Shown piece by piece: positions 19,078 through 52,339 of a stretch of 64,000 nucleotides of DNA (its first letter is position 1; the number at the start of each line of letters is the position of its first letter). Source of the DNA: Yamagishiella unicocca (Eukaryota; Chlorophyta; Chlorophyceae; Chlamydomonadales; Volvocaceae); assembly GCA_003116995.1 (NCBI GenBank), contig BDSL01000021.1:744001-808000 (forward strand), written 5' to 3'. The position numbers and the translations under genes were made by a program. Below the pieces are notes generated by a model that saw nothing but the letters and a program-made list of their open reading frames with translations, was not told where the DNA came from and made no database searches.

Positions 19078-19840
19078 CTATACAGCGAGACAGAGGCTGA
19101 TGGACTTGGTGCGCAGCAGCCTGGCTGGGTCCGCGAGCCGCACGATGCTGGGACTGGGGCCGCCCGCCCCCAGCACCCGGTAGAGCACGTAGCGGCTGCC
19201 CTGCTCCTCGGCGAATTGCAGCTCGGGCAGGCTGATCTCGAACAGGTCCTTAGCGGTGCTGCCGCTGGCCTGCGGGACCGCAGGAAGGTTTCGAGGAAGA
19301 CGCGTGGATGTGAGAAAAACCGTTTAGGAGAGGCGTTTTGAGATGCATGCTGGAGAACTTGGGTGAGGACACGAAAGACCAAGGTCGGATGTCGACCTTT
19401 GGCGGCTAAGCTAAATCGGCGGCGACTAGACGAAAGGAGGCGAGGACCCCAGGGGACGCAAGGAAACGTTGCGGTATCGGGTCTTCTCGCAGCCTCCTCA
19501 AACGGCTCCACCGGGTCCTGGTGCAAGCCCTCCAAACGGCTCCACCTACCTTGACCTCAACGTATGTAATGCTCTCGTCCGCGTGGGTGATGTACATGTC
19601 GTACGGCAAGAAGCTCTCTCGCTCCCGGTTCACCCAGAACACGCGATCCACCGCAACGCTCCCAGCTCGCGCCTGATGCGGCTCCTGCAGCGCCAGCCCC
19701 AGCGAAGAGGCGGCGCCGCTGCTGCCGCCAGCACCGCCGCCTCTGGCAGCCGCTGCTAGGCGCTTTTGGCGCTGCTGCTCTTCCTCCAGCTGGCGCACCA
19801 AATGTCGGTACACCAGCTCTTCACCCCAGCGGCCAATCGC
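19078..19840 (-). other. NOV_C/DUF3883 domain exons of the large NOV-like gene
   Basis: Exon 19550-19840 encodes AIGRWGEELVYRHL, then FWVNRERESFLPYDMYI and ITYVEVK. Exon 19078-19269 encodes KDLFEISLPELQFAEEQG, YVLYRVL and RLADPARLLRTKSI before the stop at 19078-19080. This is the DUF3883 pattern: a G-x-x-GE start, a PYD(M/I) strand and a YVEVK motif, followed by an F-x-I-S segment and Y-x-LYRV. The fold is related to restriction-endonuclease-like nucleases, and the E-x-K of YVEVK is the usual catalytic-type signature. Both exons are phase 0. The partner gene at 51695-52339 has the same exon pair. Confidence 0.88.
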
Positions 19841-49500: not shown

Positions 49501-52339
49501 CGCCAGCGACTAAAATAGTATAAAGCGTCGTATGACTTGTTTGCCCGGTCCCCCTACCATTTGCCCCTGTGCAGTTGTACGACCTTCCGGAGAACTTCTC
49601 GGTAACTGACCTCCAGGTGTGAGCTGGGAGGGATTCTGGTGGTGGGGCCGGTGGCCGGTGGGGCCGTGTCTCCGAGAGGGCTGAAGCGCTGGCCCCGTGC
49701 TGACTTGAGCTGTGTGCCGTAGGTCATCTTCAATAGGCGCATGCGGGAGCTGCTGGGAGGTCGGTTTGTGGAGGCGATGCCGCTGGATAGCTTCTACCGC
49801 CAGGCTTGTGGTTCGCTGGTGCAGGACTTCATAGGTAGGTCCTGCAGTCAGAGAGCCGAGCGGAGTGGTGACAGGCATCGACCTGTCGAGTGATACGTAA
49901 AAGGTAGCCCGAACCGCAAGCAACTGCCCACTCTTCCAATCCAAACATATTGTGTTTCCAGCACGGCCTATCACGAGTTGCCAGTCCTGCTCTCACACAC
50001 ACACAGATACACACATTCCTCACAGGCCCCCAACCCCGGTAACATTTTTACATTTCACCAGTCGCCTGACGTGCACAAAATCGATCCGCTAACCCCTGGG
50101 CCTTATGGTCGGCAGCGCTCTCCGCCTCTGCTCCGGCCCATCCAAATCGCTTTGGCGCGCTGCCCCGACTTCCGTACACGCTGCCCCACTCCCATACACC
50201 GCAGCGCCCGGGATGCAGGGGCAAGCGGCGGCGCAACTGGCGGCCTTGGACCAGCAGCTCGGCAGGCTGGCTGGCCTCAGCGGGAAGAAAAAGCGCGACA
50301 TCCAGAGGAGGATACACGAGTGCCAGCCGGAGCAGCTGCAGGCGCGTGTCAAGGATGTGACCAGAGAGTACTCCCTGAACATTGTCTTGAACATGATGAT
50401 GCGGGCTCTGCACTGTGCCATGAGGGGCCAGCTGCCAGTGGACCAGATGCAGATGGCCCAGCCGCACCCGCAGCCGCTGGCTGAGGCGCTGGCGGCGCAA
50501 GCCGCGCCCGTTGTCCGGGCGTCGCGCCTGCCTGCGGGCCCCTTGCCTTCGCCGCAGGACGCTCGCGACGGTTTGGACGACGCGAGAGACGGCATCAGTA
50601 TCAGCGGCGAGAGCGATGGGAGTGCGTACCAAAGCGCGCTGGAGATGGACGTAGACGGGCCGCGGCCCGAGGGGTCCCTCGGCGTGGCCTGCAGCAGCGC
50701 CTACTGCAGCGCACTGGAGCCTGGCGGCGACGACGGGGCCGTCACGAGCACGGCGCCCAGCGGCGGCGGCGGTGGGCCGGAAGAGGCCGCGGCGGCGACA
50801 GGGCCGGCCGTGATCCCACTAGACGCGGAGGCCCCGGTACACGCCCCGGCGGGTAGCTCCGGCGATGTCCCGATCGGCGACCGCTGCGAGACGTCCCGAG
50901 CGGCGACTGTCAAGCGTGTGAGGGACGCGGCGGCAGACGTGGACGAGGGCCTGGCGGCCGCTGGTGCTGAGGATGCTGGCAGGCTGGGACAGACGGACGC
51001 ACCGGAGGAGCTCAGGCCCAAGCGCCGAAAGCGCGGTGAGCTGCCCGCCGATGCAACTCGCCGGCACCCAGCAGCTGCTGGCACCCCGCCGGGTTGCGCT
51101 GGCGTCGCGGACGACGCCAGGGACGACGCCAGGGACGCGGTGACCGCGTGCGCCTCAGCAGGCGCCGCTTACGCGGGCGGCAACTCGCTGCCTCCGGTGG
51201 TCGCGCCCGCACCGATCGTCCACTTGCAGGGAGCTGCAGCAGATTCACGTGCGCGGGGGCGGCTTGAGGACCCGCAGCTGGATCCGCAAGTTGGTGCGGT
51301 GCGCGAGCCGCAGCACCCGCACCACCGCACGCAGCGAGGCAGCGCGGGACTGGCGGTAGGATCGTTTGTGCTGGGGTGGCGGGGCGGGGCGGTCCTGGGG
51401 TGAAGCAGCCCTATAGAGTCCCAGTACGCGCGCTCAGCCATACATACGCTGTATAACACGTAGTGTACCGGCGTACGGTGGGTGGGGTTTGGGACTCCCA
51501 GGGGTACCCGGCTGCTTCCATGGTCCAGCGGCCCTCGACGCTCGGCTCTCGGCTCCGCTCTCCCACTGCTATTTCGTTCTCCGCTCTCCCACTACTACTT
51601 CATTTTCCGCTCTCCCACTACTACTTCGTTTTCCGCTCTCCCACTACTTCTATCGGTATTCACTCCCACTGCTGCTGCTGCTGTGTGCTGACAGGCTACA
51701 GGGCGCTATGGCGAGGAGCTGGTGTTCCACTGTCTGCAGGTGGACCTGCAGCGGACCGACAGGCACGCGGTCTGGATCAACAGGGACGGCGAGCAGTACA
51801 TGCCGTACGATATCTGCGTGTATTGCGGCGAAACGGTGGTGTCGTACGTCGAGGTCAAGGTGAGAGCGGCAGGGGGAGGGCGGGGCCGGGTTCGTGGGTG
51901 TTTTGAAAAGTCTGAAAGGCCAGGCTTACCGGTACGGTGAGAAGGATACGGCCCCGGCGCGCTTCTTGATAAGGAACTGAGGGTAGGGCTTGAACCATGC
52001 ATCAATGCAGCTCAGGCTATGGGCCCTATGGCTTGGACTCACGTCCTCGCCAAACTGGCTGCCCCGGTGACCGTCGCTTACTTGGAGTTTCCGGTGGGTG
52101 CAACCCTCTCCATCTGCCTATCCGTCCAGGCGTCCACCAGCCTGAGCAAAGCGCTTTTCGAAATCAGCATGAGGCAGCTCACCTTTGCAGAGAGGCACGG
52201 GCCCATGTACGACATCTACTACGTGAGGGGCGCTAGGGGACCCGCCCCCGAGATCGTGCGGCTGGCGGATCCGATTCGGCTGCTGCGGACACGCGCATCG
52301 CAGTTGTTCATGAGCGCGGGGTGCCGGGATGCATCGTAG
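43558..52339 (+). CDS. NOV-like paralogue without ATPase: three LOTUS-like domains plus NOV_C/DUF3883
   Basis: Ten exons join in phase to 2073 aa: 43558-46769, 47059-47160, 47330-47511, 47934-48598, 49044-49424, 49575-49616, 49723-49834, 50205-51355, 51695-51859 and 52130-52339. The first exon encodes three LOTUS-like repeats (about residues 17-85, 322-390 and 929-1010; e.g. DPRFAFDLSNLLVRHPGGLP and FGCDLRRMLL). They are separated by Pro/Gln/Ser-rich linkers, and a HVSYESVMAGVDYYLAGR segment shared with the minus-strand gene follows. Exons 2-7 match the NOV N-terminal region (SVTIEAYCAAR, VTMWDLEQHLC, RLGPLAAHP, SSYDIAAAVRR). Exon 8 resembles the Lys-rich 38-kb exon of the partner. The last two give DUF3883 (GRYGEELVFH, YMPYDICVY, SYVEVK, KALFEISMRQL). 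The GHKL ATPase and the central NOV body are absent, which suggests an internal deletion after duplication. ATG 43558 opens the first domain. Confidence 0.85.
44104..44483 (+). repeat. Coding 75-bp repeat, five copies of a 25-residue unit
   Basis: Inside exon 1 of the shorter NOV-like gene, a 75-bp unit encoding QWPAAPAAPPGQRGLWPAAP plus TAPYA is repeated five times almost without base changes. It is in frame and lies between the first and second LOTUS-like domains. Near identity at silent positions points to recent expansion, so copy number probably varies between strains. Confidence 0.95.
46186..46236 (+). repeat. Polyglutamine (CAG/CAA) tract
   Basis: An almost pure run of CAG and CAA codons encodes about 16 glutamines just before the third LOTUS-like domain of the shorter NOV-like protein. 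Mixed codons make it more stable than a pure CAG run. It probably forms a flexible or self-associating linker. Confidence 0.9.
47536..47665. repeat. 23-bp minisatellite in intron 3 of the shorter NOV-like gene
   Basis: About five to six copies of a 23-bp unit (GAGCTCGTGTGTGCCATGGGG) start 25 bases after the donor at 47512. It is intronic. Each unit contains SacI and NcoI-like palindromes, GAGCTC and CCATGG. Confidence 0.9.

Follow-up and report, generated by a model that had tools for sequence, protein, structure and literature searches.

The window analysed here is the 64,000-nt stretch C21:744001-808000 of the Yamagishiella unicocca genome (133.4 Mb in 1415 contigs), and it contains two head-to-head genes of the NO VEIN (NOV) family that share both of their ends, one copy being without the ATPase middle. 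The minus-strand gene runs from an ATG at 42998 to a TAG ending at 19078, and the plus-strand gene from an ATG at 43558 to a TAG ending at 52339. The two divergent starts are thus separated by 559 bases, as a previous reading made from the letters alone (the sequence-only reading) had described. The 559-bp intergenic region (42999-43557) returned only itself in a DNA search of its own genome. The gene models on both strands are predictions.

The minus-strand gene is the full-length copy. Its first exon (42574-42998) encodes one LOTUS-like domain (42998-42729), with a PF12872 match below cut-off and a predicted LOTUS fold, and ends in YYLAG. The second (41889-41990, 102 nt, phase 2 to 2; blastp and splice model) ends in EAYCAAR, and the third (40170-41487; blastp and model) carries a VTMW-EQHLC-LGPL block, an AYDIAAAVRR block and an acidic/Lys-rich tail. 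These are followed by the 14-codon exon MHGLHQNFTSDQLQ (39929-39970), a 112-nt exon opening with AAFQRLLSQALGG (39406-39517; blastp and splice model) and a Lys-rich/MRGQ exon (38453-39067; blastp and model), the last block shared with the plus gene before the C-terminal NOV_C domain. The pre-ATPase exons (34758-38134; gene finder and alignment) are home-made models, alignable with a paralogue on contig C63 from exon 37519-37179 on. The GHKL ATPase exons (32669-34657; PF25794 at 7.4e-11, tblastn and models) are placed at 34657-34489 (ending HFVMELVQ), 34247-34088 (NADDN), 33780-33719 (GQKGIGFKSVF) and 33468-32669, and both ELVQNADDN and GQKGIGFKSVF are found in the ATPase model. The match to PF25794 (Sacsin domain) reaches 42.8 bits against a cut-off of 32.8; the HATPase_c profile gives only 14.2 bits, under its cut-off of 26.4. 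The NOV body occupies approximate exons at 19841-32668 (gene finder and tblastn). The gene closes with two NOV_C exons at 19550-19840 (ending YVEVK; blastp and Pfam) and 19078-19269 (with the stop), which when spliced match at 4.9e-15 and 55.8 bits against a cut-off of 22.1. With the start, the stop and the known splice sites imposed, a continuous model of ~4,075 codons is obtained. The small exons of this forced single-gene model are uncertain, and an intron that it placed inside the LOTUS exon was rejected because the frame is open there and a homologous helix would be cut.

The plus-strand gene opens with a long exon (43558-46769) which encodes three LOTUS-like copies (43600-43854, 44521-44763 and 46342-46617), matches PF12872 at 2.7e-8 as a whole open reading frame (ORF), and likewise ends in YYLAG. 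Between copies 1 and 2 lies an in-frame, Pro-rich coding repeat of 75 nt, in six copies in register (43966-44556). Exon 2 (47059-47160, 102 nt, ending EAYCAAR; blastp and splice model) is followed by the exons with the VTMW block (47330-47511) and the SYDIAAAVRR block (47934-48609), both from blastp and model, and by two exons at 48881-48941 and 49044-49301 that were proposed by the gene finder only and for which no homologue was seen. The counterpart of minus exon 41487-40170 comprises four exons in this model. Next come the 14-codon exon LYDLPENFSVTDLQ (49575-49616), a 112-nt exon opening with VIFNRRMRELLGG (49723-49834; blastp and model) and an MRGQ/KRRKR-rich exon (50205-51355, its end picked for phase) which is modelled as joining straight to NOV_C. 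The NOV_C exons lie at 51695-51859 (ending YVEVK; blastp and Pfam) and 52130-52339 (with the stop), and together match at 2e-10 and 41 bits against the cut-off of 22.1. The same DUF3883 (NOV_C) terminal exon pair had been assigned to both genes by the sequence-only reading, and both now score above the Pfam cut-off. The VEVK word (ExK) is retained in both genes in NOV_C, a predicted nuclease-like domain.

Paralogy of the two genes is shown by several kinds of comparison. ORFs of at least 20 residues from the minus strand at 18.5-43.7 kb were compared by blastp with those from the plus strand at 43-53.5 kb (E<=0.05), yielding 20 rows. Of these, 10 match counterpart exons, either N-terminal or NOV_C (best E 3.75e-20, 1.47e-17 and 4.53e-16), 3 stem from alternative frames of those exons (E 0.003, 0.048 and 0.003) and 7 are weak and scattered (E 0.003 to 0.02). 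Nine blocks were found in a common order, in agreement with the exon order that had been proposed, and the amino-acid identity per shared block is 37-63%. Exon lengths are equal for exon 2 (102/102 nt), the 14-codon exon (42/42) and the exon that follows it (112/112). Phases agree at six junctions, the sixth being that of the NOV_C pair, whose exons start and end on codon borders in both genes, and AG|GT donors stand in the same phase after YYLAG and after YCAA. When 150 and 213 candidate exons were compared in pairs of equal length and equal phase, the 14-codon pair came first with a score of 26, the next pair scoring 16; the shared short exon previously noticed is thus real. The words YYLAGR, YCAAR, VTMW and EQHLC are present on both strands as claimed, but SYDIAAAVRR is exact only in the plus gene. 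Genome searches with the N-terminal sequences at E<=0.001 matched this gene pair only. On the sequence evidence, the shared words, exon lengths and phases are far beyond chance.

The absence of the ATPase and body from the plus gene was assessed with six tblastn queries against the window (ATPase and body of the minus gene, of C63 and of a second paralogue on contig C4; E<=1). All 45 matches fall in the minus gene and none in the plus gene. While 30 of them are the minus gene against itself, the other 15 come from C63 and C4, showing that the search reaches diverged copies. As a control, queries from the minus N-terminal part and NOV_C gave 8 plus-strand matches, all inside the plus gene. At this sensitivity the plus gene is to be regarded as without ATPase and body, and hence as a NOV-derived paralogue rather than a full NOV protein, which bears out the division of the two genes made in the sequence-only reading. 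The stretch absent from it corresponds to minus 38452-19841, about 3,000 codons.

It could be asked whether the minus locus is one gene at all. It might be transcribed as two units, LOTUS/MRGQ in one and NOV in the other, with the plus gene a fusion brought about by deletion. For this speak the stop that the unspliced Lys-rich ORF meets just below 38322, the modelled nature of the minus gene's continuity, and the poor detectability of whole N-terminal blocks in C63 and C4, where only one of 20 comparisons stood out in a shuffle test of six blocks. The unforced gene finder, however, linked the N-terminal exons and the pre-ATPase region in one continuous prediction, and its sole break in the gene falls at the HFVMELVQ/NADDN border, inside the ATPase domain itself. 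Furthermore, the pre-ATPase region of the minus gene aligns with C63 (score 213, 0 of 150 shuffles), and upstream of that region, on the same strand, C63 carries the LGPL half of the N-terminal block. In a test of block halves against three minus-strand frames of C63 (275.0 to 264.7 kb), the LGPL half was reached by 0 of 200 shuffles for the minus gene and 1 of 200 for the plus gene. The pre-ATPase alignment and the upstream LGPL half lend independent support to the minus locus as one gene, and we consider two units unlikely. The one N-terminal comparison that stood out, the AYDIAAAVRR block of the minus gene against C63 (6 of 500 shuffles), was distrusted as it falls on a Gly-rich, low-complexity stretch.

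The C4 and C63 loci also bear on which form came first. Both carry ATPase and NOV_C (on C4 the ATPase lies near 126-127 kb and NOV_C near 116.5 kb), and the C63 ATPase stretch is 50% identical to that of the minus gene over 142 residues. NOV_C was significant against C63 and C4 in 4 of 4 shuffle comparisons (0 of 500). By these sequence matches the genome would hold three loci with ATPase and NOV_C besides one copy that lacks the ATPase; these counts are minima, because some loci known here escaped the genome searches. The plus NOV_C protein search (E<=0.05) recovered both genes of the window together with C4 and missed C63; the genome-wide PF13020 search found only C4; and the genome-wide PF25794 search gave 11 rows on C16 (9 of the 11), C61 and C52, with none at C21, C4 or C63. 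These profile and protein searches were run exon by exon and are therefore no census. The gene finder fused the C4 and C63 NOV genes with their neighbours (7619 and 3204 codons). It is quite improbable, in our view, that the ATPase-less form is the older and that the minus gene gained its ATPase and body by fusion. Such an origin would fit the protein searches with both LOTUS-like sequences, which returned nothing near the C4 and C63 NOV genes, but the ATPase-bearing stretches of C4 and C63 also end in NOV_C and the LGPL block is present in C63, from which the full form looks ancestral.

The two genes do not represent a fresh event, since identity per block is only 37-63% and pooled dS is about 1.07 (dN 0.56 over 519 aligned codons, Nei-Gojobori, partly near saturation). 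We strongly infer that an old inverted duplication, at the DNA level and keeping introns, produced the pair, and the evidence argues equally strongly for a later loss, from the ancestor of the plus copy, of the stretch matching 38452-19841. An inverted duplication followed by internal deletion had been suggested before; it is supported by the shared exon lengths and phases, by the N-terminal sequences found in this pair only and by the other loci with ATPase and NOV_C.

Such a loss might have left the plus gene a decaying remnant, which we judge very improbable. It is without some 3,000 codons that its partner has, and is known as a sequence model. Against decay, the modelled plus gene is intact, with a complete, hand-assembled ORF of 2056 codons across 11 exons, and dN/dS lies below 1 (0.35-0.71 by block), although this ratio, being taken between paralogues, is uninformative on which copy is constrained and to that extent counts against our reading. 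A relative of the terminal exon also speaks against it. The plus NOV_C query of a protein collection gave 3 proteins among 6 candidates, one of which, P0001, is a 119-residue protein on a 506-base ENA contig. It matches the plus terminal exon gap-free at 65 of 69 residues, and its intron-derived part matches the intron in the window only with gaps and a change of frame. On this one exon we take P0001 to be the probable plus-gene orthologue of a closely related organism, the exon being under constraint.

The LOTUS-like domain had been attributed to both genes, and it is present in both; that the plus gene has three copies had gone unnoticed. The minus domain scores 20.8 bits with PF12872 (E 3.6e-4), under the cut-off of 23.8, while the whole plus ORF reaches 34 bits, over it; plus copies 2 and 3 give 21.0 and 21.2 bits singly and copy 1 has no Pfam row. 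According to its structure model the minus domain adopts the LOTUS fold, which it would have in common with LOTUS/OST-HTH proteins such as Oskar, TDRD5, TDRD7 and MARF1. RNA binding has been predicted for LOTUS domains (PMC2848206). Those of the eLOTUS subclass bind Vasa, a DEAD-box helicase, and stimulate it, the plant domains being reported without the extension required for this (PMC5458760). In the minus model a C-terminal helix is predicted (75-89), a possible counterpart of this extension, but the model's fit to Vasa-bound Oskar (5nt7) is poor, 4.9 A over 84 residues. The genome-wide PF12872 search gave zero matches, missing even the copies in the window, and is therefore no guide to absence elsewhere.

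The modelled minus protein starts with its LOTUS-like domain and the NOV N-terminal block, continues with a GHKL ATPase of sacsin type and the NOV body, and closes with NOV_C; in the modelled plus protein, three LOTUS-like domains precede N-terminal blocks and a NOV_C of the same kind. The most plausible mechanism is that the full-length protein is an ATP-driven GHKL clamp that gates a NOV_C domain acting on nucleic acid, and that its LOTUS front end recruits it to RNA or to a helicase partner. The short copy would retain the recruiting and effector ends with the ATP switch gone; it would then bind constitutively where the long protein binds, whether to sites or to partners, and act as a competitor or adaptor independent of ATP. 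The sequence-only reading had proposed that the short protein might oppose or scaffold the long one under a putative common promoter. Sequence cannot discriminate between a competitor and a scaffold role. Taken as a whole, the account favoured here, with the anatomy described, the old duplication and loss and an ATP-independent companion, has in our estimate about an even chance of being right. It is possible, though on balance not probable, that the proteins have diverged in role, the short one serving as an independent LOTUS-rich adaptor with NOV_C that has no contact with the full-length protein. The old divergence, in both dS and identity, would fit this, and so would the fact that the plus gene alone has a Pro-rich linker and as many as three LOTUS-like copies. 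On the other side stand the block order kept at both ends and the genes that are still head to head, neither of which demonstrates interaction. Broader still, and rather doubtful, is the idea of a conserved green-algal module, in which a LOTUS front end of RNA-granule type is attached to an ATPase/nuclease-like machine of NO VEIN type, whose activity is set by a co-regulated three-LOTUS twin that lacks the ATPase and occupies the same partners.

Besides those already given, a number of points weigh against the favoured account. All splices are modelled, as is the joining of LOTUS end and ATPase in one minus transcript. The gene finder was self-trained on its own predictions and over-predicts, so that the exons it gives between 38 and 20 kb are approximate in detail. 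The plus model is hand-built, and two small exons in it, as well as the point where exon 50205-51355 ends, were picked to preserve phase. The LGPL test was not blind, as a word hunt in the C63 and C4 frames, based in part on a plant NOV motif, had preceded it. With the first half of the VTMW block, C63 gave no significant match for the minus gene (112 of 200 shuffles) and a weak one for the plus gene (10 of 200). The tree of six NOV_C sequences, including plus, minus, C4 and P0003, has no fork uniting plus and minus and supports only C4 with P0003 (85/84); being unresolved, it does not by NOV_C alone show the two genes as sisters. Finally, the structure model of plus LOTUS copy 3 has a predicted local distance difference test (pLDDT) score of 58.7, too poor for use.

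NO VEIN is required for vein and meristem development in Arabidopsis, and the biochemical route is unexplained. With NO VEIN (NOV, AT4G13750) the minus gene has in common the sacsin/NOV-type GHKL ATPase and the C-terminal NOV_C in one large modelled protein, and its N-terminal LGPL block recurs in the C63 paralogue. The LOTUS-like N-terminal domains of both genes would set them apart from the plant family, and the plus gene is without the ATPase; a NOV relative without the ATPase may also exist in plants, where Arabidopsis has NO VEIN-LIKE, a shorter NOV relative. Sacsin has the PF25794 module likewise, but the minus gene ends in NOV_C. No HEPN or DnaJ row was obtained among 20 minus ORFs scanned, which leave some exons uncovered. 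DUF3883 has been described as a novel predicted restriction endonuclease (REase) domain, and prokaryotic members of the family are fused to SNF2 helicases in restriction-modification operons (PMC3710099); here the domain would be part of a eukaryotic LOTUS protein. MARF1 resembles the plus gene in having several LOTUS copies, six in Drosophila (PMC6168497), but in the present genes such domains are fused to NOV parts. No such fusion is found in the passages considered of PMC2848206, whose text never mentions an ATPase, and no description of a LOTUS-NOV pair was found in the open-licence literature, a scope that leaves out most subscription papers. Since this alga naturally carries a copy without the ATPase next to a full one, the purpose of the ATPase could readily be tested in it; RNA or DEAD-box helicases are hinted at as partners by the LOTUS-like domain.

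In a protein collection taken to be poor in algal proteins, plus residues 930-1660 found no algal relative at E<=0.001 among 8000 scored candidates, and an alignment of both YDIA blocks found none among 4814. PDB sequences gave 7 rows for NOV_C, all WNK1 kinase at E 0.22 or worse and taken as chance, and 41 rows for the ATPase at E 0.00095 or worse, a mix of designed ankyrin proteins, Hsp75/TRAP1, sacsin, HtpG and others which was left unused.

Several minor features were seen in and around these genes. Relative to the plus gene, minus NOV_C exon 19840-19550 has ~40 extra low-complexity residues between GRWGEEL and WVN. A 10-bp repeat array in a modelled intron of the minus gene (28798-29924; 97 copies of a 300-nt reference in register) translates to Cys/Met/Pro-rich open frames, and a 19-bp array in the intron region (31428-32430; 42 copies in register) is open in several frames. 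A short interspersed sequence recurs, 80-84% alike and with inverted orientation, in or beside modelled introns at 19315-19411, 28080-28176 and 31114-31176, and a long (CA)n run lies at 25644-25858. On C4, the chain modelled upstream of the ATPase on the minus strand starts near 134.5 kb with HPDKN, a J-domain-like word. Elsewhere in the genome, the sacsin-domain matches at C16:737456-750037 fall into two clusters and may represent one or two genes of sacsin type, and C44:165494-173313 holds three adjacent copies of the RuBisCO small subunit. A small-subunit exon of this genome agrees with PDB 1gk8, the Chlamydomonas reinhardtii protein, at 69 of 75 residues, which fits a Chlamydomonas-like green alga. 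In the window itself, a plus-strand ORF at 62260-63210 encodes a galactose-oxidase-like early set domain (PF09118, E 3.3e-22).

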